Positions 8,995 through 28,923 of a DNA stretch of 28,923 nt are shown here, one piece after another. Within the stretch, counting starts at the first letter, position 1. Each line of letters opens with the position of its first letter. Source of the stretch: a virus. Below the pieces are notes generated by a model. It was not told the origin of the DNA, did no database searches, and saw only the letters and a list, made by a program, of their open reading frames with translations. Location: positions 1 through 28,923 of IMG/VR virus record IMGVR_UViG_3300031746_000126, one strand, 5' to 3'. The position numbers and the translations under genes are program-made.

Positions 8995-9008
8995 CAAAGG
9001 GGAATACC

Positions 9009-9299: not shown

Positions 9300-9474
9300 G
9301 GACAGCGAGGGGTTGCTCACGTCCTACGGGATGGACATCGCCCACCGTTACGCCCAGGCCTGGGCCGAGAGGGGCACGCGTGATCTCGCGATCGAACGTG
9401 AGTATCCCGAGCTGGCTGGGCTGTTCTGGGACATCCGGGTCGATCCAGCGTTGGCTCGCGCGCATGCAGCATGA
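9253..9474 (+). CDS. Hypothetical small protein overlapping the previous gene
   Basis: This 73-residue protein uses the ATG at 9253, which has GGAGG at 9241-9245 with good spacing. The frame extends upstream to a TTG at 9235, but that start lacks a comparable RBS. It overlaps the preceding gene by 47 nt. The sequence is mostly helical and charged (MDIAHRYAQAWAERGTRDLAIEREYPEL) with no known motif. It ends 12 nt before the 181-bp tandem repeat. The strong RBS inside the upstream gene argues that it is translated. The function is unknown. Confidence 0.6.
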   Translation: MKYVMPLKKAQEKPTEDSEGLLTSYGMDIAHRYAQAWAERGTRDLAIEREYPELAGLFWDIRVDPALARAHAA

Positions 9475-9486
9475 ATTTGCAGAGTT

Positions 9487-9848
9487 CGAGATGCACGGTG
9501 CGGTATGTTGTTCTGGAACGCGTGTTCCCGGGAGCGTAAAGTTTCTAGGTACGACGTGTCCAGCGACTCACGTGATCGGTTGCAGCCAGGGGTATTTTAG
9601 TCATCGGGGTAAACTGCTTGGGAGCTAACTCCATGATGTCACTTCCTAAATTCTATTTTCTGGAACCCGAGATGCACGGTGCGGTATGTTGTTCTGGAAC
9701 GCGTGTTCCCGGGAGCGTAAAGTTTCTAGGTACGACGTGTCCAGCGGCTCACGTGATCGGTTGCAGCCAGGGGTATTTTAGTCATCGGGGTAAACTGCTT
9801 GGGAGCTAACTCCATGATGTCACTTCCTAAATTCTATTTTCTGGAACC
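9487..9848 (+). repeat. Two 181-bp direct tandem repeats ahead of the giant gene
   Basis: Copy 1 (9487-9667) and copy 2 (9668-9848) are head to tail and, by eye, differ at one base (A at 9566, G at 9747). The 4 bases after copy 2 repeat again (CGAG, 9849-9852). Each unit holds a GGAACGCGTGTTCC hairpin (9515-9528 and 9696-9709), two copies of the iterated TTCTGGAA word, a GGGAG ribosome-binding site and an ATGATG start followed by the first ~11 codons of the giant gene. The element therefore duplicates the leader and translation start. The single difference argues against a pure assembly artefact but does not exclude a recent duplication. Confidence 0.95.
9633..9809 (+). CDS. Possible 58-residue leader ORF created by the tandem duplication
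   Basis: The first repeat copy carries the same GGGAG and ATGATG start as the giant gene. Reading from 9633 gives the same first residues (MMSLPKFYFLEPE), then runs through the second copy's leader and stops at a TAA (9807-9809), 4 nt before the true ATG at 9814. It could be a by-product of the duplication or a translated leader peptide coupled to the downstream start. No conserved domain is visible, and its composition (CCSGTRVPG) looks like translated non-coding DNA. Confidence 0.25.
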   Translation: MMSLPKFYFLEPEMHGAVCCSGTRVPGSVKFLGTTCPAAHVIGCSQGYFSHRGKLLGS

Positions 9849-15800: not shown

Positions 15801-16818
15801 CGGCCCAAACCCCTTGGGGTGGGTGGGGCTCACTGACAACGGCAGTTCGATTGCGGTGATCCCACCCAGCACGTCACAGGACACGTTCAAAAACACGTTT
15901 CGGGTGCGCATCCCTGTAGGGCTAGATCCAGTGGCTGAACTACGCGAGGCGTTCCAGAAAATGGGAAAGGACCCAGACAAGGTGCTTGCGCCCCTCAATG
16001 CGGACAGTGACCGCATCTGCAAGAAGTCGATGCTGGTGCGCGGGATGATGGGCGCCGCGGGTTGGAATGAGGATAGCTTCGCTCCAGCTTTGATGCACAA
16101 CGAACCTTGGTTGGACGAGAAACTCGGAAAGCTCGGTGCCAAGACGCAGGTCAAAAGTCTACGGGTAATGAAGACCTTCGATAACCAGGTGACGGTGGTA
16201 GCGGATGACGCGGAGAAGTTCAAGAGTTGGGACTTCGCCTACGTCGGATCGAAGGCGTTCGCTACTACGCTCCAGCTACTCCAGGGATCGGGGTGGTCGA
16301 GTCGACGCAATCGGTTGATGCACGGGATCTGGAACGGCGGGCAATCGGCATCCACGGACTTCAAAACTGGGGGATCCAAGGGTACGTTCTTTCGTATTGC
16401 CGGCGGAACCGCGCCCATGAGCAACTCCTACGAGTGCCAGATCATCGTCCACCCGCGGGTATTTCAGCGGACCGATTGGTGGCGCTACAACACCGATGGG
16501 TATGGTAATACCTCTTCGCACGCCCATCACGGGGGCGGGATATCGGCGTCTCCGACGCGCAATATCAGCAAACTCAACAGCACCAACGAAATACTCTTCG
16601 AGGGTGGCGTGGCTGCGCAGGATATCGTGGCGGTAGTGGTCAATTACGAAGACAACCGGGATAAGATGATCGCTGCGCTGAAAAAAGCAGGAATGACTGA
16701 ACTGAATGGCAAGCCGGTGGAGGAGGTGATCATCCTCCCCACCCATAAGGGCCACTATGCTTATGGGGATTCCACCGCATTCGCCAAACTGCTGGGGCTC
16801 AAGAAAGACGGGGAGTAG
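9814..16818 (+). CDS. Giant polyvalent protein: PI3K/HipA-like kinase, repeat array, ART-like C-terminus
   Basis: This is a 2,334-residue protein starting at ATG 9814, with GGGAG 8 nt upstream. A TTG at 9799 is in frame but lies on the RBS side. Residues 41-46 are GPRNGK, a variant of the shared signature. Residues ~170-400 look like a PI3/4-kinase or HipA-like kinase: lysine K203 in KWVFK, a catalytic loop with N286, D288, H290 and N293, and D305-K-G307 as the metal-binding motif. Two segments (~513-575 and ~798-890) resemble each other, and the second ends GGWKFW, like RAMA-type domains. Six repeats with an lPvGT core occupy ~937-1493, separated by Pro/Glu linkers such as VPEKEEE. A Lys/Ala-rich helix follows (~1623-1656). 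The C-terminus has GTFFRIAGG (~2190) and NEILFEGG (~2259), which suggest an ADP-ribosyltransferase fold (weaker call). It is probably packaged in the virion. Confidence 0.88.
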   Translation: MMSLPKFYFLEPEPLIKAMVKTAKVHINLGSWQGLSIIAIGPRNGKIVGYGSAGKPIYAGSAAAQKLVDILQAKHTYTPAQQDVALVKWLMELGLKGAVDAQHVHLSKEGAQLLQESFSVAPQALGGGKWAVSKALLLPHLGEPLKPSEEDHTGWAAEMASGQYGDGSFPPMSELTELPAGKFAGSHGNLLFVDKGGHKWVFKASNPTIARAEEAACRLGRLLLGDLIPAVKYVEVKGKGGALIQILEGKTWQESSSQHSDPQIENLKKYKELIIKHQVVDWLVSNHDSHAGNFLSQGDQLAAIDKGQSWKFLGKDKLEADYSPNPSHPIYNKFWENISEGVIDPEGLIEAVAVVVNRADQISPEQFQLIVAPYVSTASGWTHADPKVQLQEMLSRLQNLRSDFEGFLSKELGKKVVLPKPETVQVAWEVAPGEKPAAPAVKKLPIKLEIPLAPAAPVIPDSPAKLKEVETVPVTAEKPAAGWPLTKKGPKGAGVTIHTPGFIPASWWPPGIPAPGLKLSVEYKGKTHSLEVKEHWEGKKPTFLVTYPDGGVAAFPSLNAAGDSLYLFNQGLPLTLSATEKKAKGISLGSKVFQLKLFEKELSEASGKQDEPVPVAVATPVQLEEQKVIEPEQPKATAFQLLAKAHPENAVLSMYDPALPQEVKEFLLANSGGNQLSPDWDLAMTPGQVAVAKHDFFGGPVILAAKLSKEGKPELWGWWEDAAKGQVVERWGGSTAKVMLEAVGLKNNAALAEAKKGYEQAVALELKSKAPIGPPPAVELPENAVVPPSAPKFTEGPLSKGTVIKVKKKVPGYDKKQEVTLTVLQNGQLLVEIPGQTAQTFQTLSAASDHVWVVQKGFTDAADYKAKNKTNKVPSGGGWKFWGISPAATPVVQTSEPGVGGAVAPAVGTAPVPVSGEAPAPAPTGTVEPKGGKFPTDLEAFYQLPVGTSVQTKSSWGATTIYVKESDDKWMVTFESGESQNYDDVQALGSINGEALYNWNLGLGPLPVPEKEEEQTFLPAPLPPPSLEQIKAYPLGTKVHVNVHSHPSYVYVKTAAGWSNLESGNTYKDLTVANSWKQPFNEITKIEVPEKEEKPGEGGLQAQLELLIKTGDFAFLPKNTVIQSESKSGAIQYKYVKESDNFWKTYSDGINVGSFSSYVVATELKDEVITSWKKPGGAAFTPETESTPAEEVPPEVPSVGNQVELVNQIKASAKLAGISGFEDIIKALIALPPGIVLKTEGTMGQEYQYQKQADGSWATISGGLNLVTGIPPGSLAVDLKHEIITAFTPAGQPVVPEKDKAAKGAPPLLMKPVADFPKDDLGTFKKLPIGTSVVSTTSIGHTWTHTKVEENSWEAKSSETGIAYPAIPDQVVFTDMATETVVTFGVPDAQSIPATWEEFDNLAWGKMTAGPVHKTISDYAQYLNSPAGFSAIPVGTVINTEHKTGNTYEYTKLAPDAWEIVSGGGHKYAYHDSKALSDIQNETILGWKQSMEAPGLLKPVEQMTPAEKMTKVKVNMPFKQALKVHPGLQEGKLKIKKAKGSGMYICLDGVPGASTKLYTALQDLGMTHVIKNTGGIPKINAQGAFVTVDGFVLDQEVTVETTALDASSEQHAPSDPNWQTMPKAKAKPKKSKAQKEAEQKSKELQAKAAEIKAWGEQHPPVTDKTELQVLAALQGAFDKYEIPVGAIARMDGDQVILGHKTHQAQLDKLVVDLADKAGFIYETVSTPWGDAFKLSIQKVKEGVEQATGMVIGGMISGPDGKEYPAGTTFQKKVVETTVEQLLPGEPGFYKIKEHKNEPLVLALIKIAGNGEEQIAQMKAMIEKYELKGPFPEPKVTDNSTIHSVYKTSLQKVWKTEETYESTIPKQLPDFVQGSLPYSEAAGLWEEVGDGSADLHNIDGVKSSLFGAVLRIGAPGELRDFCIRYRKVKDASGKLHHEFTGDLVSISGTTTKLKTGTVKFGATLGKTISGLGGTASKVLDYDPDTGIHTESSPVLEDGPNPLGWVGLTDNGSSIAVIPPSTSQDTFKNTFRVRIPVGLDPVAELREAFQKMGKDPDKVLAPLNADSDRICKKSMLVRGMMGAAGWNEDSFAPALMHNEPWLDEKLGKLGAKTQVKSLRVMKTFDNQVTVVADDAEKFKSWDFAYVGSKAFATTLQLLQGSGWSSRRNRLMHGIWNGGQSASTDFKTGGSKGTFFRIAGGTAPMSNSYECQIIVHPRVFQRTDWWRYNTDGYGNTSSHAHHGGGISASPTRNISKLNSTNEILFEGGVAAQDIVAVVVNYEDNRDKMIAALKKAGMTELNGKPVEEVIILPTHKGHYAYGDSTAFAKLLGLKKDGE
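12622..14290 (+). repeat. Six divergent ~65-residue repeats inside the giant gene
   Basis: Each repeat has the pattern [LIY]P.GT.v.......y.y.k...W....sG followed by a conserved end. The anchors are LPVGTS (~12643), YPLGTK (~12910), LPKNTV (~13159), LPPGIV (~13504), LPIGTS (~13792) and IPVGTV (~14107). Start-to-start spacing is about 83-115 residues because Pro/Glu linkers of different length separate them. The beta-rich pattern with an invariant Trp suggests small beta-sandwich or SH3-like units. Three of the linkers are encoded over TTCCAGAAA copies (VPEK). Confidence 0.8.
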
Positions 16819-16820
16819 CC

Positions 16821-17156
16821 ATGCGCACCGACATCGTCTACGAAGTGCACTGCGTATCGAATCCGGAGTTCCCTCTTGGGCGTATCGGTAGAATTTTTCC
16901 GCACCCAGGCGGGATACTGCTGGTTACCGATGGGGTGTCCCATTTTCTGGAAATCGAAGATCCTGACGAACAGTTGATCGACGCCGAGAAAGATGGTCAT
17001 CTGGAGATCAACACGCCCAAAGGACGGTTCATTTTGAACGCCATAGATCGAGAAGCGGCTGAGGAGCTATCCCCTTTCTATGACGGTGCTCCGGCTGAGG
17101 TGGCGAGCAATGAAGAAGCTCAGGGTATCTACCTAAAGATTTTAGGCCCACTATGA
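16821..17156 (+). CDS. Hypothetical 111-residue protein
   Basis: The ATG at 16821 follows the giant gene's stop by 2 nt, with GGGGAG just upstream inside the previous coding end. The sequence looks like a compact beta-rich fold (LGRIGRIFPHPGGILLVTDG), then an acidic helix and a C-terminal ILGPL. It has no cysteine cluster, signal peptide or membrane segment. The stop overlaps the next gene's ATG (ATGA at 17153-17156), so it is translationally coupled on both sides. The sequence HFLEIED is encoded across a TTTCTGGAA copy at 16944. I do not recognise a family; it could be a chaperone or partner of the giant protein. Confidence 0.75.
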   Translation: MRTDIVYEVHCVSNPEFPLGRIGRIFPHPGGILLVTDGVSHFLEIEDPDEQLIDAEKDGHLEINTPKGRFILNAIDREAAEELSPFYDGAPAEVASNEEAQGIYLKILGPL

Positions 17157-17359
17157 GATGCCCGCATTGCGATAACCATCTGCTCCAGAAATCTGGAAGT
17201 CGGGTGCGCGTACGCACTCAAGGACCCATTGAGTTCGACGGTGCGCGCTGCCGGGCGAAGTGCTACTGGTGCAGCGCGCCGGTTGACTTACCCCTCCAGA
17301 TCCAGGAAGGCGCCCCCATCGCTCGCGAGCAATTTCTCCTTTCACGCAAAAGAGATTGA
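17153..17359 (+). CDS. Small zinc-ribbon protein
   Basis: This 68-residue protein starts at the ATG that overlaps the preceding stop. It begins MRCPHC and has a second cysteine pair in CRAKCYWC, giving a CPxC...C(x2)C-type zinc ribbon, followed by SAPVDLPLQIQEG. Small zinc-ribbon proteins such as Mu Com regulate translation of phage genes, but the similarity here is only the cysteine pattern. A nucleic-acid-binding or virion zinc-ribbon role is inference. It is the last gene before the terminator at 17436. Confidence 0.7.
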   Translation: MRCPHCDNHLLQKSGSRVRVRTQGPIEFDGARCRAKCYWCSAPVDLPLQIQEGAPIAREQFLLSRKRD

Positions 17360-17383
17360 CAGAATTCCAGAATCGGATACGTT
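17356..17383 (+). promoter_or_regulatory. Weak candidate promoter ahead of the capsid operon
   Basis: A perfect TTGACA (17356-17361) is followed after 16 nt by TACGTT (17378-17383), which matches the sigma-70 -10 consensus at only 3 of 6 positions. A TTCCAGAA copy (17365-17372) lies in the spacer. If used, transcription would run into the terminator at 17436, so either read-through or antitermination would be needed. The evidence is thin. Confidence 0.2.
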
Positions 17384-17435
17384 GAAATCAATCAGAGATG
17401 CGCGGCGATAGGCCCGTTACGGTTGAGGCCGGTTG

Positions 17436-17477
17436 GGGCGGACGCTTTGTAGAACAAGCGGTCCGCCCTTATTTTTT
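17436..17477 (+). terminator. Rho-independent terminator between the polyvalent genes and the capsid operon
   Basis: The stem GGGCGGAC-GCTT (17436-17447) pairs with AAGCGGTCCGCCC (17456-17468), with one bulged base, an 8-nt loop and the T-rich tail TTATTTTTT (17469-17477). The RBS GGAG of the protease gene follows at once (17479-17482), so the terminator sits in the protease gene's leader. Confidence 0.85.
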
Positions 17478-17489
17478 GGAGTTTTCAGC

Positions 17490-18320
17490 ATGGAATCGTT
17501 CGCGTTTGATGTACCGGTGGACTTTTTCGAGAAGGCTGATGCGGAGCCAGGCAAAGAGCGGCGCATCGGCGGTATCGCTACCATCGAGACCAAAGACCGC
17601 CAGGGGGAAGTCCTACTCGCGCGCGGGGTCGATTTTTCGGAGTTCGTGAGCAACGGCTGGTTCAACGATAACCACTCTAAAAAGACCACCGACATTCTCG
17701 GCTACCCGGAGAAGGCCCACTTTTTTCGCAAGGGCGAGGAGCTGCCCACCGGCGAGAAGGCCGCGGCTGCCGGGCATTGGGTGGAGGGGTACCTGCTGAG
17801 CACTCCGGAAGCCGACCGGGTCTGGGAGCTGGGCAAGGCCCTCGCCCAGACCAAGCGACGGCTGGGGTTCTCGGTGGAAGGCCGGATCGAGAAGCGCACA
17901 GGTTCGGCGCAGAAGACCATCGCCAAGGCGCTGGTGCGCAACGTGGCGATCACGAATTGCCCGGTGAACGCTGGCGCACGGATGGAGATCCTGGCCAAGA
18001 GCCTCTACACCCTTGGGCTCGATGAGCCGACCGAGAAGTCGCTCGGCATGGGTCCGGTTTCTGGAAGCCCTCCGACTCCGCCGGCGTTGATGGGCCCGCA
18101 GTCGGGCATGGGTGCTGGGCGGGTGATTGCCGGGCAGAGCTTGGAGCATGACGAGGTCGACATCGTTTCTGACGAGGACGAGAAGAAGCGCAAGAAGCGC
18201 ATCAAGAAGTCATTGACCGAAAATGAGACGTACGCGTGGCTGCGCGCCCGGCTGCCCCACGCTACCCCGGAACAACTCGGGCGCATCATCACGCTGACCC
18301 GCGATCGCACGCGGCGGTAG
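17490..18320 (+). CDS. HK97-type prohead protease
   Basis: This 276-residue protein starts at ATG 17490, preceded by GGAG. The frame extends 19 codons upstream through the terminator hairpin, which is not a credible start. The N-terminal domain has the prohead protease pattern: RIGGIATIETKDRQGEV near the start, a candidate catalytic His at H62 in NDNHSKK, and a candidate catalytic Ser at S128 in GFSVEGRI. This matches the order and spacing in the HK97/U35 family of capsid-maturation serine proteases. After about residue 180 there is a Pro/Gly linker (its VSG lies over a TTTCTGGAA copy at 18058), a Lys/Arg-rich stretch (EKKRKKRIKKS) and a short helical tail, possibly a scaffold-interaction tail. 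It would cleave scaffold and capsid delta regions during head maturation. The scaffold and capsid genes follow directly. Confidence 0.9.
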   Translation: MESFAFDVPVDFFEKADAEPGKERRIGGIATIETKDRQGEVLLARGVDFSEFVSNGWFNDNHSKKTTDILGYPEKAHFFRKGEELPTGEKAAAAGHWVEGYLLSTPEADRVWELGKALAQTKRRLGFSVEGRIEKRTGSAQKTIAKALVRNVAITNCPVNAGARMEILAKSLYTLGLDEPTEKSLGMGPVSGSPPTPPALMGPQSGMGAGRVIAGQSLEHDEVDIVSDEDEKKRKKRIKKSLTENETYAWLRARLPHATPEQLGRIITLTRDRTRR

Positions 18321-18340
18321 GCGCAGTGAAGGAGACAAGC

Positions 18341-19162
18341 ATGGCCAACAAGTCGAAGAGCGAGAAAGAGCTGGATCAGGATGGGCAGGGGTTCCCCGAA
18401 GAAGAGGGTGCGGGAGACGAGGACGGCGAGAAGAGCGGCTGCGGGAAGAAGAGCGCAGATCTGAGTGAGGATGACCTCCAGAAGTCGCTCGACCAGCTCT
18501 CGGCGCTCACCGAGAACCCGGCCGTATCGCGCAAGCAGCAGCTGCTGGAGAAGGCCCAGAGCAGCGAGCTGGAGAAGAGCGAACGTGACGAGCTGTTCGA
18601 GCTGCTCGGCAAGAGCGAGCAGCCCAAGAAGACGCTCGGCGACGAAGTGTCCAAGGGCTTGAACGAGAACGACACACTCCAGAAAGCGCTCGACGTGTCC
18701 GACTTCCTCCAGGAGCAGCACTCGGAGCTGATCAAGTCGCTGACCACCCTCGCCGACGCGCTGGAGAAATCCGATGCCCGGCAGCACGAGTTCAACCTGG
18801 TGCTCGCCCGCGCGGTCTCCGGCATCGGCCAGCTGACCAAGGGCCTGGGCGAACGGGTGGGGGTCATCGAGACCCAGCCAGCTCGCGGGCCCAAGAGCCG
18901 GGGCGTCACCGGCGCCCAGCCGCTGGAGAAGGGCTTCGTCGGCGGTGCCCCCCAGGGTAGCGAGCTGAGCAAGAGCGCGGTGCTCGATGAGCTGGAGAAC
19001 ATGGTCCAGGAGTCGATGACGAAGTCTCTCGGTGGCATGACCGAAGAGGGGATCGACCTGGTGACCGCCAGCTCGAAGTATGAGCAGTTCAATCTCATCA
19101 GTCAGGGCCTGCTCGGCCAGGTGCAGAAGCGCATCCAGGAACGCAGGGTCGCTGCCCACTAG
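18341..19162 (+). CDS. Putative capsid scaffolding protein
   Basis: This 273-residue protein uses the ATG at 18341 with GGAGACAAG upstream; the longer in-frame extension to 18236 overlaps the protease gene and has no RBS. The sequence is strongly charged and helical: an acidic start (EEEGAGDEDGE), long heptad-like helices rich in Leu, Glu and Lys (about residues 45-165), a Gly/Pro-rich break near 180, and a final helix ending VQKRIQERRVAAH. It has no enzymatic motif. Its place between the prohead protease and the major capsid protein and its coiled-coil composition are typical of tailed-phage scaffolds, which fill the prohead and are later cleaved. The scaffold role is inferred from position and composition. 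Confidence 0.75.
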   Translation: MANKSKSEKELDQDGQGFPEEEGAGDEDGEKSGCGKKSADLSEDDLQKSLDQLSALTENPAVSRKQQLLEKAQSSELEKSERDELFELLGKSEQPKKTLGDEVSKGLNENDTLQKALDVSDFLQEQHSELIKSLTTLADALEKSDARQHEFNLVLARAVSGIGQLTKGLGERVGVIETQPARGPKSRGVTGAQPLEKGFVGGAPQGSELSKSAVLDELENMVQESMTKSLGGMTEEGIDLVTASSKYEQFNLISQGLLGQVQKRIQERRVAAH

Positions 19163-19218: not shown

Positions 19219-20649
19219 ATGTTCGGATTGAATCAGGTGAGCTGGAAGGATTACGAAGGGGTCGAGGGATTCGGCGAGGCCACGGCCGCAGACGTCAGCG
19301 AACTCAACAAAGCCCTCGCCGCCGGCCAGGCCATCACTGGCCCGGGCGGAACGGCCGGAGACGGCTTCGCGCTCCGCGTGGAAAGCCTTGAAAGGACGCT
19401 GAAAAACACCACCTACCGGATGGAGCATATCCGGTTCTGGAAGGCCGTGCCCAAGCTCCCGGCCTACAACACGGTCGAAGAGCACAACGAAATGAGCCAG
19501 TACGGGGCGAACCCCGACGCTGGCTTCATCTCCGAAGGAGATCTGCCGGAAGAGGACGACTCGATCTACACCCGTAAGTACGCGGTGGTGAAATATCTCG
19601 GCACCACCCGAAAGGTCACACACGTGATGTCGTTGATCAAGCCTGCCCACGGAAACGTGGTCGCGCAGGAAACGGTCAATGGAACCATGCACTTGCTCCG
19701 CGTGATGGAGCGGGCGTTGTTCTACGGCGACAGCTCTTTGTCAGCCCTCCAGTTCGACGGGTTCGAGAAGCTGATGAAGGACCTCTGCCCGACGACCAAC
19801 ATCATCGACCTCCGCGGTCTGCCGCTGAGCGAAGATCTGCTGACAGATGGAGCACTTACGGTCCAAGATGCTCCGAACTATGGCACGCCCACCCACCTAT
19901 ACCTGAACCCTAAGACCAAGACTGACCTGGTCAAGGCGTTCTTCCCCAAGGAGCGTCACGACACGTTCCAGAAACAGGGCGGCTTCATCGGTCTGGACAT
20001 CAAGGGTTTCACCAGCCCAGCCGGAGATGTCGTGTTCGAGCCCGACGTCTTCATCACCGACGGTGGCGGCCCCACGGCCAACGCGATCGGCGATGCCTCG
20101 AAGCGTCCCGGATCCCCGACGTTCTCCACAAATCCGGCTGACACGGGCGAGGCCACGGCGAAGTTCGCCGCCGATGATGCGGGCGACTATCGCTACAAGG
20201 CGGTCGCCGTGAACCGCTACGGCCGGTCGGCTGCGGTGGCCTACGGCTCAGCCCTGACCGTCGAGGCGGGCAACAAGGTCACCTTCGGCCTGACGCCGTC
20301 TTCGGCCACGACCGGCTGGTTCGAGATCTACCGGACCGCCAAGAACGGCGCGGCTGGCACCGAGCGGCTCATCCTGCGAGTGCCCAACGCGGCCGGCGCG
20401 GGCGAGACCACCGTCACCGATCTCAACTGGAACCTGCCCGGGTGCACCGTGGCGTTCCTGTTCCAGCTCAATCTGGAGTCCTTGTCTTTCAAGCAGTTAG
20501 CCCCGATGGTCAAGATCCCACTGGCGACAATCGATAGCAGTATCAGATGGATGCAGCTCCTGTACGGAACTCCCGTACTTTACACACCTGGTAAGAACGT
20601 TCTCTACAGGAACGTAGGCAGGGCCACCGGGTACGTCGGCTCACCGTAA
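19219..20649 (+). CDS. Major capsid protein (HK97 fold) with an Ig/FN3-like insert
   Basis: This 476-residue protein has a near-consensus AGGAGG RBS before the ATG, as expected for a highly expressed gene. Residues ~60-290 fit HK97-fold capsid proteins: an N-terminal arm, then QYGANPDAGFISEGDLPEEDD, an extended-loop-like region, and the long helix region MHLLRVMERALFYGD. Residues ~295-410 look like an inserted beta-sandwich domain with DAGDYRYKAVAVNRYGRSA and GWFEIYRTAKNG, typical of Ig/fibronectin-III-like surface domains. The last ~65 residues (LESLSFKQLAPMVKIPLA... VLYRNVG) return to the capsid fold. The insert probably projects from the capsid surface. The gene is closed by a terminator 37 nt downstream. 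Confidence 0.85.
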   Translation: MFGLNQVSWKDYEGVEGFGEATAADVSELNKALAAGQAITGPGGTAGDGFALRVESLERTLKNTTYRMEHIRFWKAVPKLPAYNTVEEHNEMSQYGANPDAGFISEGDLPEEDDSIYTRKYAVVKYLGTTRKVTHVMSLIKPAHGNVVAQETVNGTMHLLRVMERALFYGDSSLSALQFDGFEKLMKDLCPTTNIIDLRGLPLSEDLLTDGALTVQDAPNYGTPTHLYLNPKTKTDLVKAFFPKERHDTFQKQGGFIGLDIKGFTSPAGDVVFEPDVFITDGGGPTANAIGDASKRPGSPTFSTNPADTGEATAKFAADDAGDYRYKAVAVNRYGRSAAVAYGSALTVEAGNKVTFGLTPSSATTGWFEIYRTAKNGAAGTERLILRVPNAAGAGETTVTDLNWNLPGCTVAFLFQLNLESLSFKQLAPMVKIPLATIDSSIRWMQLLYGTPVLYTPGKNVLYRNVGRATGYVGSP

Positions 20650-20686
20650 GGGTTGAGAACGACTGACAAAAATTGATTTTCTGGAA

Positions 20687-20735
20687 AAGGCGTCGGGGTA
20701 CCCCGGCTCCCCTTCCGGCTCCTCGGCGCCTTTTT
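20687..20735 (+). terminator. Rho-independent terminator after the capsid gene, flanked by inverted copies of the iterated word
   Basis: A 12-bp stem (AAGGCGTCGGGG, 20687-20698, with CCTCGGCGCCTT, 20721-20732, two G-T pairs) is followed by TTTTT (20731-20735). The iterated word sits immediately before it as TTTCTGGAA (20678-20686) and just after it as TTCCAGAAA (20741-20749), so the pair is inverted around the hairpin. Confidence 0.85.
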
Positions 20736-20760
20736 CAGATTTCCAGAAAGAAGGTAGATC

Positions 20761-21375
20761 ATGGAAAACACGATTTCCGATGCGGTAAAAGACCGCATCC
20801 CTACGGCAGAAGAGGAAGAGTTCATCCAGAGAAGCCTGTCCGGCGCGGTCTCCCTGTTCCTGGGGCAGCCGGTCCTCGCCGACGCCGATCGAATCGTCAC
20901 CACGATCCTGTTCAGCAACGGCACTTTGTCCATCGCGGCGCAGCCCGACTGCCCGCGCAACATCACCGCGACCTTGACTGACGCCGATGACAGCGTGGTG
21001 GGGTTGTTGACCATCACCGGCAAGGACATGATGGGCCGGACGATCGTCGAGACCATGGCCCCCGACGGCGAGGGCGCGGGCAAGACACTCACCGGCACCA
21101 AGATCTTCGCCAGCATCACTTCGGTGGTGATCAGCGGAGCGAGCGGTGGTGAAACCGCTGTGGACATGCTGGTGGTTGGCGTGGGCACCGTCATCGGCGT
21201 GCCCTTCGACCTTCCCGACGTGGACGCGGTCCGGCACACCTATCTGGGCGGTACGCGCATCGCCAGCCCCACGGTAGCGATTGGGGTCTCAGCCAGCGGT
21301 ATCGACGCTTCGGCCGGGACGTACAACGGCACCAAGGTGCTGCACGCTATCGTGCAACCGACAGCGCGGGTCTGA
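20761..21375 (+). CDS. Putative virion structural protein
   Basis: This 204-residue protein has an AGAAGG RBS. After a helical N-terminus (ISDAVKDRIPTAEEEEFIQRSL), most of the sequence is beta-rich with many Gly, Thr, Val and Ile residues (ITATLTDADDSVVGLLTITG, SITSVVISGASGG). It has no signal peptide and no enzymatic motif. It is the first gene after the capsid terminator, and the fold type and location fit a capsid decoration or head-associated protein. I do not recognise a named family. Confidence 0.7.
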   Translation: MENTISDAVKDRIPTAEEEEFIQRSLSGAVSLFLGQPVLADADRIVTTILFSNGTLSIAAQPDCPRNITATLTDADDSVVGLLTITGKDMMGRTIVETMAPDGEGAGKTLTGTKIFASITSVVISGASGGETAVDMLVVGVGTVIGVPFDLPDVDAVRHTYLGGTRIASPTVAIGVSASGIDASAGTYNGTKVLHAIVQPTARV

Positions 21376-21398
21376 TTCCCGGGAAAGGAGAGCGGGCA

Positions 21399-21722
21399 AT
21401 GAAGCTCCAAAACGTGCTTCCGTACATGGCCAACGGCTCGGTGTTGGTCAACGGCCATCAATACGAGCTAGATGCTCAGGGCATAGTGCTGAGCGATATG
21501 ACGGATGAGGACGCTCGGAAGCTGCTCACCAATCGAGCCGCCTGGCGGATAGCGGTTGAACGGCAGGTAGTGACCCCGGAGCCAGTGGCACCAGCGCCAG
21601 TGCTTTCGGAGCGGCCCATCACCATCCCGAACATGCGTGAGCCGGTGGCGGTCCCACCAGCGCCAGAGCCGCTGTCAGTTTCCGAGTTCAGGTCCTCGGT
21701 GAACAAGATCCGGAAGAAGTAG
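21399..21722 (+). CDS. Hypothetical 107-residue protein
   Basis: The ATG at 21399 is preceded by GGAAAGGAGAG. The first ~50 residues are a small domain (VNGHQYELDAQGIVLSDMTDEDARKLL). Then comes a Pro/Val/Ala-rich stretch (VTPEPVAPAPVL, AVPPAPEPL) and a basic end (KIRKK). This architecture, a small fold with an extended Pro-rich tail, is common in small head-completion or linker proteins, but I cannot assign one. Spacing to both neighbours is short, so it is part of the same small-gene operon. Confidence 0.65.
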   Translation: MKLQNVLPYMANGSVLVNGHQYELDAQGIVLSDMTDEDARKLLTNRAAWRIAVERQVVTPEPVAPAPVLSERPITIPNMREPVAVPPAPEPLSVSEFRSSVNKIRKK

Positions 21723-21770
21723 CGTTCCAGAAAAATCCAGAAGGCCCCATAGGGCCGATAGGAGAATGAA

Positions 21771-22112
21771 ATGGCAATAAGCAACCTGCCGAAAAGCGCA
21801 CAGGAATACATCCCCTACCTGAAGGATCAGGGGATCCCCAACCTAGTCGGCGCTGCCGCCAGAGGATTCTCGATGCAAGGGCATCAGATCGCCATGCCGG
21901 CCGATGGCATCGTGGTCTTCGCCACTCACGGGCTGATGGACATGGCGGACACGAACTACCTGGTGCAGATCCACAATCACACCACCGAGTCGAAGCAAGG
22001 CAAGGTGGCGCTGGCCGACCGCAAGACCAGCCAGATCACCATCGTCGGCCCGGCCACGTCCGAGGTGCTGGATGTGGTGCTCTTCGGCAAGCTCAAGGGC
22101 CAGATCGCCTGA
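21771..22112 (+). CDS. Hypothetical virion-type protein, 113 residues
   Basis: The start is supported by TAGGAGAATGAA before ATG 21771. The 48-nt gap upstream holds a TTCCAGAAA copy (21725) and a small GGCCC/GGGCC hairpin (21743-21756). The protein has a short helical start (SAQEYIPYLKDQG) followed by beta-rich sequence (GHQIAMPADGIVVFATHG, SQITIVGPATSEVLDVVLFG). It has no motifs of known enzymes. It is probably a virion component because it lies between capsid and fibre genes. Confidence 0.65.
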   Translation: MAISNLPKSAQEYIPYLKDQGIPNLVGAAARGFSMQGHQIAMPADGIVVFATHGLMDMADTNYLVQIHNHTTESKQGKVALADRKTSQITIVGPATSEVLDVVLFGKLKGQIA

Positions 22113-22129
22113 GCTGAAAGGATCCGGGC

Positions 22130-22438
22130 ATGAGCGTTCTGGAATCCAGAGGCGGAGCCCCTCACGTGTTCCGCGAGACCATCTACACCGCCGGTCGAGT
22201 GCATGCCTTCCCCTTCGTCTCGAAGTATCTGAAGGTGCGCGCGACGACCAACCCCTGCAAACTCTATTTCACTGAGGCCGACTTCACCAGCGGTACCAAC
22301 TACGTGCTGGTGCCGGTGGCGGGGACCAGTACCCCCAACGGGGAGTGGGAAGGCCCGGTGGAGGCCACCCGCGTCTGGGTCCAGGGCAGTGGTGGGAACA
22401 GCGCGATAGAGCTAGTAGCTTTCCAGCGACGCGGATAG
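22130..22438 (+). CDS. Hypothetical virion-type protein, 102 residues
   Basis: The ATG at 22130 has AAAGGA upstream. The coding start contains a perfect inverted repeat, TCTGGA-A-TCCAGA (22138-22150), built from two copies of the iterated word; it could fold close to the start codon and affect initiation. The protein is beta-rich (PFVSKYLKVRATTNPCKLYF, EATRVWVQGSGGNSAIELVAF) and looks like a single small beta-sandwich. Such folds are common in decoration and neck proteins. I do not recognise a family. Confidence 0.65.
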   Translation: MSVLESRGGAPHVFRETIYTAGRVHAFPFVSKYLKVRATTNPCKLYFTEADFTSGTNYVLVPVAGTSTPNGEWEGPVEATRVWVQGSGGNSAIELVAFQRRG

Positions 22439-22472
22439 ACTAGGGCCATACCCGAGATCCGGGAGGTGCTTA

Positions 22473-23069
22473 GTGGGACCGCGTCAGCTGCTGCGGCTAT
22501 TCGAAACCCGCAAGTCAGAGCAATTCGACGATCAGAAAACCTCTGCGGAAATTCAGCTTGCCGAAGGCACAGCACAGACACACCAGGACTTTGTCCAGTA
22601 CATCATCTCCCAGGTGCGGCAGATCCTGGGCACTCAGAAATGGTACGACCCAGTACCGATCAGTCTGGCGCAGGTACTCGCTGGCCAGCACGCGTTTCCA
22701 GCGAATTGCTTGGCTGAAGATCGACTGGGAGATTGCGTCTATTCCAGACAATCTCCGGTCGGCGGGATCATCCAGGTGGCCCATTGCGACCCTTACGACT
22801 ATTCAACATTGCCGGCCATTGGGGTCATCGTGTCGAAAGCTGCAGCGACCAGCTGCGTGGTGCAATACGGTGGCGTGCTCAGCGGGATTTACAGCGGGTT
22901 GGAGAGGCCGCTTCCGGTGTTCCTTGCAGAAGATGGTGGGCTCACGCACGCGGTTCCGGCCCCTTCCGTGGGGCGTCCGGTTTATTTGCAGCACCTCGGA
23001 GTGGCCATTGCCGATAGCATCATCGCCCTGACACCCAGCCCCCACCTGACCAAGATAACTCCAGCTTGA
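22473..23069 (+). CDS. Hypothetical virion-type protein with GTG start
   Basis: This 198-residue protein starts at GTG 22473, with GGGAGG at 22461-22466 at good spacing and no closer ATG. The N-terminal third is helical (ARTKSEQFDD-like to VQYIISQVRQILG), followed by WYDPVPISLAQ and a beta-rich C-terminal domain (SPVGGIIQVAHCDPYDYS, IGVIVSKAAATSCVVQYGGVLSG). It has no enzyme motif. It is the last gene before the AT-rich gap and the fibre genes, which fits a neck, connector or fibre-attachment role, but this is position only. Confidence 0.65.
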   Translation: MGPRQLLRLFETRKSEQFDDQKTSAEIQLAEGTAQTHQDFVQYIISQVRQILGTQKWYDPVPISLAQVLAGQHAFPANCLAEDRLGDCVYSRQSPVGGIIQVAHCDPYDYSTLPAIGVIVSKAAATSCVVQYGGVLSGIYSGLERPLPVFLAEDGGLTHAVPAPSVGRPVYLQHLGVAIADSIIALTPSPHLTKITPA

Positions 23070-23297
23070 GTTCCAGAAAAATATAAAAGTTGCGGAATTT
23101 ACTGTGAATTAAAAAATCATCGACCAATTTCTAGCTTTTGTCAAAATATCCCCCGTATTCTGGAAGAAATCACTTTTGCAGCCGGGTAACTCTATTTGGC
23201 TGATTTTCACCACAGAACAAAAAGTAGCAGACCATAGTGGTCTGACAACTGCTGCCTGGTAATTTGTTTCTACAAACCCGCTACAAGGAGAAAGCGC
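23070..23297 (+). promoter_or_regulatory. AT-rich intergenic leader upstream of the fibre gene
   Basis: This 228-nt gap is clearly richer in A and T than its surroundings. It contains the last two copies of the iterated word (TTCCAGAAA at 23071 and TTCTGGAA at 23158), a TATAAAAG (about 23082) and a perfect hairpin CAGACCA-TAG-TGGTCTG (23228-23244) without a T-tract. No convincing -35/-10 pair was found. The AAGGAG RBS (from 23285) belongs to the next gene. It is probably the regulatory start of the fibre transcription unit, and it coincides with the point where the iterated word stops. Confidence 0.4.
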
Positions 23298-25397
23298 ATG
23301 ACTCTACGTCAATTCCTGTTTTTGAATGTCGACAACAACTACGGGTACAACGAGGTGGCGCCAAGTACCGACTCGTTGGCACTTGGTGGGCTGTCGATGT
23401 CCGGCGCCATCACCATGGCGACCAACAAGATCACTGGCCTGGGCAATGGCGTAGACGCCCAGGACGCCGTCACCAAAGCACAGATGGATGCGGCCATCAC
23501 GGGCCTGACCTGGAAGCCCCCGGTTCAAGTTCTGAAGATGAAGAGTGACGTGGCTCGCGCGGCTGCGGCTGCGCTCGTCGCGGGTTCTGGCGGAACGGGG
23601 ATCGTCAGCCTGACGACCGGCAACTCGTTCACCGTTGCGATCGACGGCGAGACCCCGGTGGTCATCACCTTGGCTTCGGCCCCGGCTGATCGCGCGGCTG
23701 CGATCACGGCCATCAACACGCTGTACGGTGCTGGCGGTGGTCTTGGCGGAACCATTGCGGTTGCTGGCGCAGCCGATCAGATCGACATCAAGAGCAACAC
23801 CACGGGCACGGGTTCGACCGTGGCCATCACCTCGGCTCACGCGAACTGGCTGGAAGTCGGTATCGTCAATGCGACGGATGCCGGAACGAACAATGTCCCG
23901 ACTGCGGCCGTGTCTGGCGAGGCGTGGGTTGTCAACAACTGGGGTACCGGCTATGTCGACGGCGACATCGTGGAGTGGAGCGGGTCGGCTTGGGTCGTGG
24001 TTCTGCCCGGTGCGACCCAGGAGCCACCCGACAACACCCGCGTGACGGTCATCTCTTCCGGTGCAGCCGGGTCGTTCGTCGGCCAGGAAAACAAGTACGG
24101 TACTTACGATGCCGATCCGGTCGATCCTACCTGGTCGTTTGTGGCCATGGTGGATGGCGACGCCGAGCTGGTCAGTGGCGAAGGCAGCGTGTTCGAGAAC
24201 ATGGCTTTCACCTTCGACACTGGCACGGGCTGGGTGCAGTTCACGGGGCCGGCTTCCCTCCCCGATGCCACCAGCGCTCCCGCTGGCGGGACCAAGGGTA
24301 AGGTCGGGTTCGACTCCAGCTTCGGTCTGCAGGTGAACAGCGGGCAGGCCAAGATCAATGTCACGGCCGACACGGGTCTGATTTTCAATGTCGGCACTGG
24401 CGCCATGGAAGTCGAAGTCAACGCCGCCCAGGCCATCCATGTCGATGGGGATGGTATCGGGTTGTCCATCAAGGCGCTGTCCGGCCTCGAATTCGATACC
24501 AACGAGCTGGCGGTCCTGCTGGAAGCCGCTGGCGCTGGCACGGGTGGCTTGCAGTTCAATGCCGGTGGTGAAATCGGGATCCTGCTTCAGGACACCAGCC
24601 CTGGTCTGCAGCTGACCGCCGACGGACTCGACACCAAGCTCAAGGCCGCCTCTGGTCTGGCCGCCGACGCCGACGGTCTCTACGTTGTCGGCGATGCCGA
24701 TGCCGGTATCGTCGTCTCGGGCACTGGCGTCGGCATCGCGCTTGAGGCGGGCGGCGTTGGCACTGGCGGTCTGGAATTCAATCTGGATGGTGAATTGCGG
24801 GCGGACCCCGATACCGCTGCTGGTATCACTCTCACCGCCAACGGTATCGGTGTGGCTCTGGCCACGGCTGGCGTGGGCGTTGGCGGTCTGCAGTTCAACG
24901 GTTCGGGTGAGATGGAGCTTGACCTCGACGCTGCCGACGGCGCCCTGGCTCTGAGCGCCGACGGTCTCGCGGTGGTCATCGACAACACGACCATCGGAAT
25001 CAACGGCAGCAACCAGTTGTACGTCAAGGGCGCTGGCGACGCAACGCGCGTTAGCGCCCAGCTCATCGCGGGCGCCGGTGGCATCGCCAAGGGCAACGCG
25101 GTTTACATCTCGGGTAACAACACGGTCCTCAAGGCGGACAAGGACGCGGCTCTGACCGCGGCCGCGATCGGTGTGGCTCCTTTGGCCATCACCGCTGGCG
25201 ATCCTGGATCGATCGTGTTCAGCGGCATCGTGACCGGGATCCTCGCTGGTGCGACCGCTGGTGCTCCCTACTTCGTCACGGACGCTGGTGTGCTTTCGCC
25301 CACCGTCCCCAGTGGCGCGGCCTACGTTCGGCGTGTTGGTTACGCCGTCAATGCCACGGACCTTCTGGTCATGGTCGGCGAGGTGACCAAGAAGTAA
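23298..25397 (+). CDS. Tail-fibre-type protein with internal beta repeats
   Basis: This 699-residue protein has an AAGGAG RBS 8 nt before the ATG. The N-terminus (LGGLSMSGAITMATNKITGL, then DAQDAVTKAQMDAAITGLTWKPPV) is typical of phage fibre proteins that attach to the virion. The middle has repeats of about 40-55 residues with the pattern G.GGLQFN..GE...........L.LTADGL.....A at roughly nt 24540-24970. These are nearly all Gly, Ala, Leu, Asp and Val and suggest an elongated trimeric beta-structure. The C-terminus (VFSGIVTGILAGATAGAPYF... VGYAVNATDLLVMVGEV) resembles fibre C-terminal domains. It has no enzymatic motif. It has none of the exact iterated words found upstream. Confidence 0.8.
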   Translation: MTLRQFLFLNVDNNYGYNEVAPSTDSLALGGLSMSGAITMATNKITGLGNGVDAQDAVTKAQMDAAITGLTWKPPVQVLKMKSDVARAAAAALVAGSGGTGIVSLTTGNSFTVAIDGETPVVITLASAPADRAAAITAINTLYGAGGGLGGTIAVAGAADQIDIKSNTTGTGSTVAITSAHANWLEVGIVNATDAGTNNVPTAAVSGEAWVVNNWGTGYVDGDIVEWSGSAWVVVLPGATQEPPDNTRVTVISSGAAGSFVGQENKYGTYDADPVDPTWSFVAMVDGDAELVSGEGSVFENMAFTFDTGTGWVQFTGPASLPDATSAPAGGTKGKVGFDSSFGLQVNSGQAKINVTADTGLIFNVGTGAMEVEVNAAQAIHVDGDGIGLSIKALSGLEFDTNELAVLLEAAGAGTGGLQFNAGGEIGILLQDTSPGLQLTADGLDTKLKAASGLAADADGLYVVGDADAGIVVSGTGVGIALEAGGVGTGGLEFNLDGELRADPDTAAGITLTANGIGVALATAGVGVGGLQFNGSGEMELDLDAADGALALSADGLAVVIDNTTIGINGSNQLYVKGAGDATRVSAQLIAGAGGIAKGNAVYISGNNTVLKADKDAALTAAAIGVAPLAITAGDPGSIVFSGIVTGILAGATAGAPYFVTDAGVLSPTVPSGAAYVRRVGYAVNATDLLVMVGEVTKK

Positions 25398-25437
25398 GCA
25401 GTTCTAGATAGTTAGATGTTCTTTGGTAACTGAGCAT

Positions 25438-25497
25438 AGGGGGCGGGTGACCCGAAGTCTCCAGTAGCCTGAGCCGATTGGTTGCCCGCCCCCTTTT
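25438..25497 (+). terminator. Rho-independent terminator after the fibre gene
   Basis: GGGGGCGGG (25439-25447) pairs exactly with CCCGCCCCC (25485-25493), followed by TTTT. The arms can be extended inward with mismatches (TGACC with GGTTG). It lies 41 nt after the fibre stop codon and before the leader of the next gene. The rest of the 168-nt gap (25398-25565) shows only an AT-rich stretch and the GGAGA RBS of the next gene. Confidence 0.85.
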
Positions 25498-25565
25498 CTA
25501 TGTGGCCGAATGTTCAGTCATGGAGCTAAACTAAAATCTGAATTTTTACCATTGGAGACAGCCAC

Positions 25566-28500
25566 ATGGTCAAGCGCTCAGGGTCTATCGACTTCACGGG
25601 TTCCCCAGTCCTAACTCTTCGGAATGAGAATACGCTTTGTGAATACACCGGGGACTCGGTAGATCCAAACGGCAACTGGCTTGACCAATCTGGGGAGAAC
25701 CAGGTTAAGGCCAGCGAGGATATGACCCAGAGCATTTGGGTCAAGGTCAACGGGGAGATCGTCTCCGACGCGGTCCTCTTGCCCGACGGTAACATCGGGA
25801 CTGTCAATGTCCTCAAAGAGAACACGAGCGAAGAACAGCAACTCCATGCGGTGACCCAGCTCAAGACCAGCCTGGTGGCTGGGAAGACGTATCGCTTGAC
25901 TGCGTTGATTCGCTCGATGGGCAGGCCTTGGGCCGTTCTCAAGGTGACAGATCTGTATTCTGGTGAAGTAGATTACGGGTTCTACCTCAATCTTGCGACT
26001 GGGGTGTTTGGAGCAAATCTCTCCGGGAGCATTATCAAACTGAGAAGCTGTTACCGGGCGCCCTATGGTTGGCAGAAAGTGGTGCTAGAATTCGAAGCGG
26101 CCCACTCAGCCGATTATGATATTCGCATTTGTGGAGCCAAGCAAAACAACCTGCACATCTACACTGGCGGTGGGGTGAATGCTATCGCTGTAACTCGGGT
26201 GCATTTCGTGGAGATCACCGGGGTAGCTAAATCGCTGGGGCACATGCCCCGGTACGTGAAGACTACCGATGTCGTCAAACCGAAAATCAATCTGACTGCC
26301 TATGGAACTCCTCCGACAGTAGTCACGGCCATTCCAGGCGTGCGTAGTGCATATCTGCAGGGACGGGGATTTAATGGTGTTGGCCAGTTTTTCTCGGTGG
26401 GTGCTTTACCCGATCCAGCGTTGTTCGCGCATGACCACACGGTGAGCGGGCTTGTGCACGTTGATGCCGATAGCGGATCTTGCCTGCTGTCCTATTACGC
26501 CGCGGGGCCAGATCGCGGTTTCGAGCTTTGGTACGATATCGCCGAGGGGACCGTCAATGCGACGTACTACAATACGACCAGCGTGACCCTGACAGGCGCT
26601 ATTCACGTGGGGGCTGTGAATCGAATTGTTTTGGTCCGTCAAGACGACGTCGCGACTCTTTCCGTAAACAACAAGATGGTCGAGATGAAGAACGTAGCGG
26701 GGTTTGGGGTATCGCCAGGCGCGGGATTTTATGTTGGAGCGCGCGGAGGAGTCAGCAATTTCTTAAAGGGGTATATGGTTTATTTGCGAATTGATACCGC
26801 GGCGCTGAATTCGGTTCGGAAGACGCGTGAAGAGGACTTGCTTACCGGCGTCAAGCACGGTTCCCAAAATAAGGTGATCACCCACGTAGCTTTCACACGT
26901 GAGAGCCCTGCAGATGTTCACAAGTCTGACGGGGCTATAGTCAGTACGCCAATTGACGAGATGCGAATCGGTAGCTCCGGGCGCATCAAGAATATTTTGA
27001 AGCGGACCAATCTGTTTACCCATAGCGATTGGGTGAAGAATAACGGTACGGTTGATACATACGGTGGTCTTGATCCTGATGGGGGAAACAGTGCGTTTGT
27101 CCTTCATGAGAACGACGCTGACGCGGAGCACAACATCGACCAGGTGCTACCGACTCTGGCCCCGGGCAAGTATACGCTGTCAGTCAAAGTCAAACCCCTG
27201 GGGCGCGAGTGGTTCTCATTGCCGGTCGGGACAGATGTCTCCAAGCAATACTCGTTGTTCCATTTGGTGAACCACGGGAATGTTGGCACTCGGGTCGGTG
27301 GATGCGGGTCGAAAATAGAACCGGCCGGTAACGGTTTCTACTGGGTATCCCAAGCAGTTGAGCTTCTTGATCCGACGGAGACCTACAAAGTCTTTTTGAG
27401 CGTAGCTGTTTCAGGGAACTTGCCGTACCAAGGCTTAGACCAGGACGCCGTGGCCATCTACGAGGTCCAGCTCGAAGAAGGCGACTCGGTCAGTGATTAC
27501 ATCGAGGGAACCGATGCTGTCGCCATGCCGACGACGTGGATAACTGAGCGGCGAGGGGCGTTTACCTCGCTGGTCTTGGAGACAGCTGCGTCTGAAAGTA
27601 CGAATTCTTCACTGAGCAAGTTGTCAAAAGACATACCCATCAACCATATCCCTACGTTCCTGTGCAATTTCGAGAAAGCTCCTATCGGCACGCAGACCTC
27701 GGACGACACGACTGGCTATCCGATGGACATGATCGGTGGGCCGAGATTGGTAGATGACGACTCTGATGGCAAGAGCTACGAGTTTGACGCGGAGACCCAG
27801 CATGTTGATATTCAGCATGATGACGGTGGGATCGATTTCAATCTTGGCAATATGGACATGGTTCGACAGAACAAAGGCTTGCCCGTTCTGTCTCCAGGGT
27901 CCGTTGGCAAGTTCGACAACGAGTTTGTGTACGAACCCAGCGTCATCAACGATGGCGGAACTCTCAAGCTTTTCTACAGTGGCAACGATGGTGACAAGAA
28001 TCGCATGGGTCTTGCGACATCTACTGACAGGCTTGCCTGGACGAAGCAAAACAGTGGCAATCCTGTGATCGATGTCGGTGGTACTGGGTTTGATTCAGTC
28101 GGTGCTGCGGCTCCTTCGGTTATTCTTGATAATGACGTCTTCAAGATGTGGTACGTCGGATCAGACGGCACTGTGTCAACAATCGGTTACGCAACGAGCG
28201 AAGATGGCCTTATTTGGACCAAGCAAAACAACGAACGAAAAGTATTTGGCATTGGGGTTGCCGGCAAGTTTGACGATGCGTCCATTGGTTACTGCTCGGT
28301 CATCAAAGACGTTACTTACAAAATGTGGTACGCCGGGTGTCAAGCAGCGGGTGTCTACAAGATTGGGTACGCGACGTCGATAGACGGCATTTCCTGGTTG
28401 CGCCAGAACCTTGGTGAGCCGGTCCTGGATCTCGGGACCAGTGGCCAGTTCGATGACAAGAGCCTGGGTTCTCTCTGCGTGGTAAAAGACGGGGTAACGT

Positions 28501-28923
28501 ACAAGATGTGGTTCACGGGCTTGAAAGACTCAGACTCGAAAAAGCGCATTGGCTATGCCACGTCCTCAGATGGCATTACCTGGGTCAAGCAAAACTCTGA
28601 GAATGCCATTCTTGATCTCGGAGTTGGGGGCAAGTTTGACGCCAACTCTGTAAGTGACCCCAGCGTAGTGAAAATTGGGAGCGTCTACAAGATGCTCTAC
28701 CGCGGGTACGATGGGAGCATCAGCAAGTTCGGTTATGCCACAAGTTTGGACGGGGTCGCTTGGGATCGCGAGAATACTGCTAATGCTATCTCGACCGTCG
28801 GTGCCGGTGGCAAGTTCGATGTGACCGACACGGGGTCCCCGACCATCGTGTTTGACGGAACCACGTACTGGGTATGGTACGCCGGGTTTGATGCAACCAA
28901 CTGGCGCATTGGTTACGCGACGA
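25566..28923 (+). CDS. Large fibre/receptor-binding protein with C-terminal beta-propeller (3' partial)
   Basis: The ATG at 25566 follows TTGGAGACAGCC. The frame is open without a stop to the window end (1,119 residues seen), so the C-terminus is missing. Residues ~1-200 and ~460-640 look like carbohydrate-binding beta-sandwich regions (LVAGKTYRLTALIRS; LAPGKYTLSVKVKPLG, then QLEEGDSVSDYIEG), and residues ~235-430 like a LamG-type domain (YVGARGGVSNFLKGYMVYLR). From about residue 780, six repeats of 59-62 residues (GKFDD.S...PSV..DG..YKMWYAG.......GYATS.DG..W.KQN) match the blades of five-bladed GH43/GH32-type propellers. It probably binds or processes host surface glycans. Codon use is less GC-rich than upstream genes, consistent with transfer. 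Confidence 0.85.
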   Translation, partial: MVKRSGSIDFTGSPVLTLRNENTLCEYTGDSVDPNGNWLDQSGENQVKASEDMTQSIWVKVNGEIVSDAVLLPDGNIGTVNVLKENTSEEQQLHAVTQLKTSLVAGKTYRLTALIRSMGRPWAVLKVTDLYSGEVDYGFYLNLATGVFGANLSGSIIKLRSCYRAPYGWQKVVLEFEAAHSADYDIRICGAKQNNLHIYTGGGVNAIAVTRVHFVEITGVAKSLGHMPRYVKTTDVVKPKINLTAYGTPPTVVTAIPGVRSAYLQGRGFNGVGQFFSVGALPDPALFAHDHTVSGLVHVDADSGSCLLSYYAAGPDRGFELWYDIAEGTVNATYYNTTSVTLTGAIHVGAVNRIVLVRQDDVATLSVNNKMVEMKNVAGFGVSPGAGFYVGARGGVSNFLKGYMVYLRIDTAALNSVRKTREEDLLTGVKHGSQNKVITHVAFTRESPADVHKSDGAIVSTPIDEMRIGSSGRIKNILKRTNLFTHSDWVKNNGTVDTYGGLDPDGGNSAFVLHENDADAEHNIDQVLPTLAPGKYTLSVKVKPLGREWFSLPVGTDVSKQYSLFHLVNHGNVGTRVGGCGSKIEPAGNGFYWVSQAVELLDPTETYKVFLSVAVSGNLPYQGLDQDAVAIYEVQLEEGDSVSDYIEGTDAVAMPTTWITERRGAFTSLVLETAASESTNSSLSKLSKDIPINHIPTFLCNFEKAPIGTQTSDDTTGYPMDMIGGPRLVDDDSDGKSYEFDAETQHVDIQHDDGGIDFNLGNMDMVRQNKGLPVLSPGSVGKFDNEFVYEPSVINDGGTLKLFYSGNDGDKNRMGLATSTDRLAWTKQNSGNPVIDVGGTGFDSVGAAAPSVILDNDVFKMWYVGSDGTVSTIGYATSEDGLIWTKQNNERKVFGIGVAGKFDDASIGYCSVIKDVTYKMWYAGCQAAGVYKIGYATSIDGISWLRQNLGEPVLDLGTSGQFDDKSLGSLCVVKDGVTYKMWFTGLKDSDSKKRIGYATSSDGITWVKQNSENAILDLGVGGKFDANSVSDPSVVKIGSVYKMLYRGYDGSISKFGYATSLDGVAWDRENTANAISTVGAGGKFDVTDTGSPTIVFDGTTYWVWYAGFDATNWRIGYAT
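27909..28923 (+). repeat. Six propeller-blade repeats, 177-186 bp period
   Basis: The anchor codons for (K/Q/G)FD begin at 27909, 28086, 28266, 28446, 28632 and 28812. The intervals are 177, 180, 180, 186 and 180 nt. Each unit encodes KMWY.G, a GYATS.DG loop and a W.(K/R)QN strand. The sixth is cut by the window end. The repeats are divergent at DNA level but clear in protein, which argues for old duplication under selection. Confidence 0.85.

Follow-up and report, generated by a model that had tools for sequence, protein, structure and literature searches.

DNA uptake sequences of naturally competent bacteria (the DUS of Neisseria and the USS of Haemophilus) are short words spread through coding DNA at about 1 per kb, and iterated words like the HIP1 word of cyanobacteria have been unexplained for decades. 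Paucity of HIP1 together with odd codon use has previously been used for calling acquired genes (PMC3025956, PMC6604393), and in cluster A mycobacteriophages many copies of one site, the stoperator, are bound by a phage protein (PMC9283540, PMC6550527). Here we analyzed a 28.9-kb IMG/VR phage record (IMGVR_UViG_3300031746_000126, 28,923 nucleotides; hereafter the window, abbreviated W in genome comparisons), in which the near-palindromic word TTCCAGAAA/TTTCTGGAA (the word and its reverse complement) is iterated and then disappears ahead of two fibre genes. Comparison with related phages revealed that the word is a lineage-wide DNA element of a phage clade and a newly seen variant of iterated words, which is the real discovery of this analysis. 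The end of the word before the fibres is likely not a genome boundary; we favor a reading in which protein composition leaves the fibre genes empty and the word is a selected element of the whole lineage.

In the window, TTCCAGAA occurs 41 times (19 on one strand and 22 on the other) and TCCAGAAA occurs 44 times, together giving 54 distinct sites. These sites make up a word-rich tract (1-23166, assigned to no strand) with words on both strands, 44 of them coding and 10 intergenic. The last of the 54 is at 23160, and no further site occurs in the final 5,757 bases (23167-28923), confirming the absence of the full word that had been claimed from the sequence alone. The upstream density had been put at nearly two per kb, which holds for TTCCAGAA alone; counting either core (TTCCAGAA/TCCAGAAA), the density left of 23167 is 2.3 per kb. 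As also claimed, the switch falls within the AT-rich intergenic stretch of 228 bp upstream of fibre gene 1 (23070-23297, + strand), which still holds the final two words (23073 on the + strand and 23160 on the - strand). This stretch also contains a 7-bp hairpin (23228-23244), with terminator-like features on the - strand by consensus match only. Under a second-order Markov model, 1.3 copies of TTCCAGAA are expected to the left of the switch and 0.17 to its right. The left-hand rate predicts 13.4 sites on the right, for which a uniform rate gives a probability of zero sites of 1.5e-6, and 54 uniformly placed sites leave any gap so long with P = 4e-4. The uniform-rate P value is true but misleading, because genes differ in their capacity for the word. 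The six-base core TCCAGA/TCTGGA is present twice in the last part, at 24770 and 24782, both within fibre gene 1. The core is strictly TCCAGA, with no enrichment of one-mismatch variants, and the flanks favor A/T.

Relatives were found with the major head protein as query (phrog_752, SPO1-type; 19219-20649, + strand), yielding, among others, G001 (109,277 bp, 90% identical), G002 (96,810 bp, 86%), G003 (110,400 bp, 69%), and also G004 and G006, while G011 (55,720 bp, 86% identical) was found by a search with fibre gene 2. The closest cultured phages are distant SPO1-type phages, reaching at best 38% for the head protein and 45% for the portal; cultured relatives of fibre gene 1 were sought and none was found, and a search for tRNA genes in G001-G003 to place the host returned none. 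The word shows strong genome-wide over-representation in the relatives (TTCCAGAA observed vs expected, 135 vs 5.3 in G001 and 141 vs 5.4 in G002), with either-core densities of 1.56 per kb in G001, 1.77 in G002, and 1.40 in G011. It covers the whole 97-109 kb contigs with near-random spacing (coefficient of variation 1.0-1.05), and pairs separated by 20-50 bp are slightly in excess. In G001 and G002, words resume in the gene directly after fibre gene 1, and in G011, they continue through a giant fibre gene and then through the region syntenic with G001 and G002. The return of density past the fibre cassette, which the sequence-only reading had proposed to look for in relatives, is thus seen in all three phages, and the word therefore does not mark one half of the genome. 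Orientation is balanced (W, G001, and G002 together have 295 sense and 289 antisense occurrences), with no cumulative trend along the genome, and the word is found in all six combinations of strand and codon phase. Density is higher in intergenic than in coding DNA each time (6.6 vs 1.6, 2.4 vs 1.5, and 2.4 vs 1.7 per kb). The unshared genes of G001 and G002 carry 1.28 and 1.57 words per kb, vs 1.55 and 1.72 in the shared ones, and intein-like insertions in the helicase genes are worded as well (3 full words per kb).

Across the wider clade, TCCAGA is enriched 3.2-4.0-fold in W, G001, G002, G004, G006, and G011, 4.9-fold in the small L010, and 2.5-fold in L015. The sister phage G003 is enriched in TCCGGA instead (319 vs 50), with TCCAGA at 2.2-fold, and L011, L012, and G044, which are close or gene-for-gene relatives, have no comparable enrichment. 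G044 (102 kb, 33% GC) has most structural and replication genes in common with the worded phages and shows enrichment of neither TCCAGA nor TCCGGA. In-place switching of sites between TCCAGA and TCCGGA was rejected as a candidate route, since just 8 of 129 aligned sites show it, which is over the 0.3% background but weak. Avoidance of related words was also observed. TCTAGA is strongly avoided in G001, G002, G011, and G003 (0-2 vs 3-11 expected), the same phages that multiply TCCAGA or TCCGGA, and in G008, an 81-kb relative, TCCGGA (0 vs 20 expected) and CCTGGA (1 vs 53 expected) are avoided almost totally, as if restricted. No cellular genome was found to carry the word above about 0.07 per kb, either among 30 genomes counted or among the matches listed in a three-word collection scan. 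A two-word scan of viral contigs gave mainly AT-rich chance matches, plus the known relative G002.

Fibre gene 1 (23298-25397, + strand, 699 aa), which encodes YadA-stalk-like or fibre-shaft repeats, has syntenic orthologues in G001, G002, and G011, and the full word is absent from it in all four genomes. Its codon use is ordinary (rank 7 of 11; GC content at third codon positions [GC3] 0.754 vs a mean of 0.758). The protein contains 15% Gly and 16% Ala and is low in Lys, Gln, Glu, and Arg, and therefore merely 0.016 full words per kb are expected from its sequence and codon use, compared with 0.019 for fibre gene 2 and 0.18 for the other window genes. Expected numbers of the six-base core were obtained with a codon- and protein-aware model scaled by each genome's own core enrichment. 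The TCCAGA cores found in fibre gene 1 number 2 vs 2.4 expected in W, 3 vs 3.8 in G001, 1 vs 2.5 in G002, and 2 vs 2.0 in G011, amounting to 8 vs 10.7 over the four genomes. The core is accordingly not depleted in fibre gene 1, given its amino-acid sequence.

Comparison of aligned genes showed that the word is kept by selection acting on synonymous sites and shaping protein sequence. Between genomes, 52-74% of cores are retained at the corresponding position, vs 12-37% of 6-mers overall; for W and G001 the figure is 25 of 44, and for G001 and G002 it is 62 of 120, with 15% and 12% for all 6-mers. Among cores whose peptide is conserved, 72-86% keep all six bases, vs 6-46% for the same peptide in the same phase with a non-word spelling, the latter controls being small (n = 16-53). 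The tripeptide FQK occurs 19 times in G001 vs 2.6 expected and 18 times in G002 vs 2.2 (7-8-fold), but only 3 times in G003 vs 1.5 expected.

Word-free gaps are also present elsewhere in the relatives, with a 5.3-kb gap in G002 (33,257-38,574) and a 3.6-kb gap in G001 (67,921-71,475). Both surround baseplate-distal and lectin-domain genes, and the genes of the G002 gap also exist in G001 and G011. Core counts in the gap genes are near expectation, and the full word is sparse in other receptor-type proteins as well. The sequence-only reading had held that comparable gaps with no sign of transfer would speak against acquisition; the G002 gap is such a case in part, as one lectin-domain gene inside it (328 aa) is codon-atypical in both G001 and G002. 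The tail sheath was considered as the cause of this second gap and rejected, since the sheath-like gene is worded and the gap covers the baseplate-distal and lectin-domain genes.

Fibre gene 2 (25566-28923, + strand), which is open-ended and represented by its first 1,119 aa with GH130/GH32-like propeller repeats, departs furthest from typical codon use among the window genes (rank 1 of 11), and its GC3 of 0.624 bears out the less GC-rich codon use reported earlier; in G011 it ranks 2 of 21. No homologue is present in G001 or G002, and in G011 the gene is flanked by fibre gene 1 on one side and by a truncated copy of the following gene on the other. The window gene contains 0 TCCAGA cores vs 4.2 expected (P = 0.015, uncorrected, one of 17 genes tested), and no tandem repeats were detected in this part of the gene. 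The G011 counterpart is a single 5,673-aa fibre gene (contig reverse complement 1568-18589) of ~17 kb, nearly one third of the contig, with propeller-like repeats of ~60 residues (YKMWYxG). It is 86% identical to the window gene and fully worded, with 37 cores vs 42.4 expected, of which 4 vs 5.0 fall within the first 1,119 residues. At the word places of G011, W deviates by synonymous or other changes; at one of them, G011 has CTTTCTGGAAGC and W has CTCTCCGGGAGC, with three synonymous differences.

These features bear on the proposal that the fibre genes were acquired recently from a wordless source and have not yet gained the word, for which HIP1-poor genomic islands in cyanobacteria provide a precedent (PMC3025956). 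For the fibre module, or for gene 2 at least, we consider this rather unlikely. The codon use of gene 2, its lack of a homologue in G001 and G002, its place in G011, its missing cores, and the changes in W at G011 word places all agree with it. However, the proposal is not supported for fibre gene 1, whose position is syntenic, whose codon use is native, and whose core count is as expected; in G011, gene 2 has a counterpart with a full set of words; words are also present in intein-like insertions and unshared genes; and the two-part rule of the same study (word-poor and codon-atypical) singles out gene 2 alone. Unusual codon use in both W and G011, together with the missing homologue in G001 and G002, makes an origin of gene 2 elsewhere plausible, and the gene may thus be an acquisition. 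If so, the G011 line may have gained words afterwards or received the gene already worded. The word stop at the fibres probably reflects mostly composition, plus some history in gene 2. It had also been suggested that the word marks a functional domain of the genome, such as first-injected or packaged-end DNA, ending before the fibres. The sharp final occurrence at 23160 in the window fits such a domain, but it is contradicted by the near-random spread over entire contigs and the resumption behind the fibres, which make it highly improbable.

The nature of the word itself allows further explanations. A Chi-like recombination signal recognized by a host helicase-nuclease would account for the word changing to TCCGGA in G003 or vanishing in G044, and extreme Chi numbers are possible in lambdoid phages (PMC3784561). 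Chi, however, is directional, and the word favors no orientation, either along the genome or with respect to genes; no word-carrying genome appeared in the limited cellular counts and listed scan matches described above; and the phages themselves encode RecA, an SbcC-like protein, and a RuvC-like nuclease. We therefore regard such a signal as improbable. The word could instead be the recognition site of a phage-encoded DNA modification enzyme or nucleoid-type protein, serving self-marking or compaction. This is a possibility we hold with some doubt. Its near-palindromic form, graded A/T flanks, strict core, lack of orientation, and additive spread would suit such a site, and cyanobacterial HIP1 is a methylation site (PMC6604393). 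On the other side, the G002 and window proteins scanned, many of which have no Pfam match, include no methyltransferase domain and no recognized sequence-specific DNA-binding regulator, and the wordless G044 shares most replication and structural genes.

In the compositional reading, DNA-level selection maintains TTCCAGAAA at hundreds of sites, whatever their strand or codon phase, and copies would accumulate wherever base changes cost little or the encoded protein can accommodate Phe-Gln-Lys, Phe-Leu-Glu, Pro-Glu, Ser-Gly, or similar peptides. Both fibre genes encode proteins rich in Gly, Ala, Thr, Asp, and Val that could barely spell the full word, and on this account the 5.7-kb stretch would therefore stay empty, while the modest extra deficit of gene 2 may persist from a more recent acquisition of the module. 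The reader of the word would recognize double-stranded DNA and would most likely be a sequence-specific protein that acts as a dimer and comes from either phage or host. Its benefit may accumulate across many sites, for example by marking, organizing, or repairing phage DNA, and its specificity may have moved from TCCAGA to TCCGGA in the sister lineage. Several points weigh against this reading. Relatives without the word likewise have little capacity for it in full (0.01-0.08 per kb), which makes the capacity gap in part a product of the word itself, and conditioning on protein sequence is partly circular because the word shaped proteins elsewhere. When bare synonymous possibilities are counted with no codon weights, the window's fibre genes use 0 of 17, whereas 44 of 91 are used elsewhere (Fisher P = 7e-5). 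The zero cores of the window gene 2 are nominally significant, and no reader protein was identified among the G002 and window proteins scanned. A bolder account, which we offer only tentatively, is that an uncultured SPO1-like clade carries its own genome-wide "self" word read by a sequence-specific protein; selection on most copies would be enough to fix synonymous bases and even alter proteins (FQK, FLE), sisters would have switched (TCCAGA, TCCGGA, or none), and incoming fibre modules would gain the word later. A ~100-kb phage lineage with its own iterated word, sisters with another or none, and a low-GC sister that has most genes in common offers a small system for finding the reader.

Among the other window genes, the SNF2-type helicase gene (3-3860, + strand) is the densest in words of the large genes, with 15 full words. 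It has no insertion, whereas the G002 helicase (81598-87390) contains a homing-endonuclease domain within a ~1-kb intein-like insertion with three full words, and the G001 helicase (19849-25371) has an insertion at about the same place, also with three. A segment of ~30-40 aa in the window helicase (residues ~890-940) recurs in several unrelated genes per phage, including G001-G004 (tblastn). The window also encodes a head protease, a scaffold-like protein, and a large multidomain protein (5515-8994), whose domains include one of InPase type (PF18823) and the head domain of a poly(A) polymerase (PF01743). A direct repeat with 181 bp spacing (9501-9850) spans the start of a 2,339-aa gene, and its word-containing segments are identical at 9513/9694 and almost identical at 9660/9841. 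In G002, a CobT-like VWA protein adjoins a CobS/MoxR-like AAA ATPase (14815-18122), as in some Rhizobium and SSU5-type phages.

Compared with known systems, the phage word resembles DNA uptake sequences as a short word in coding DNA at about 1 per kb, but nothing ties it to uptake. Like stoperators, it is one site in many copies over a phage genome. Stoperators, however, are asymmetric repressor sites oriented with transcription, while the phage word has no orientation bias, sits mainly within genes, and reaches far higher numbers (about 170 full copies per ~100 kb); no immunity repressor was recognized among the proteins scanned. Chi in lambdoid phages (PMC3784561) is likewise an octamer whose strong over-representation in certain phages does not extend to their relatives, and the phage word differs from it in having no orientation bias, a near-palindromic form, and a 6-bp core with tolerant flanks. 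A literature search for a phage equivalent of HIP1 found none. HIP1 (GCGATCGC) shares with the phage word its nature as an iterated perfect or near palindrome, a density of about 1-2 per kb, a location mostly inside genes, and maintenance by selection. It differs in sequence and is a perfect palindrome of cyanobacteria, whereas the phage word belongs to phage genomes of one lineage and is imperfect, its core TCCAGA being non-palindromic and the TCCGGA of G003 palindromic. The comparison also carries a caution for calling acquired genes, as word-free stretches in beta-rich fibre genes can stem from protein composition, and a transfer call needs a protein-aware control. We judge the stop at the fibres to be largely ordinary and the word to be a phage-borne relative of HIP1-type words.

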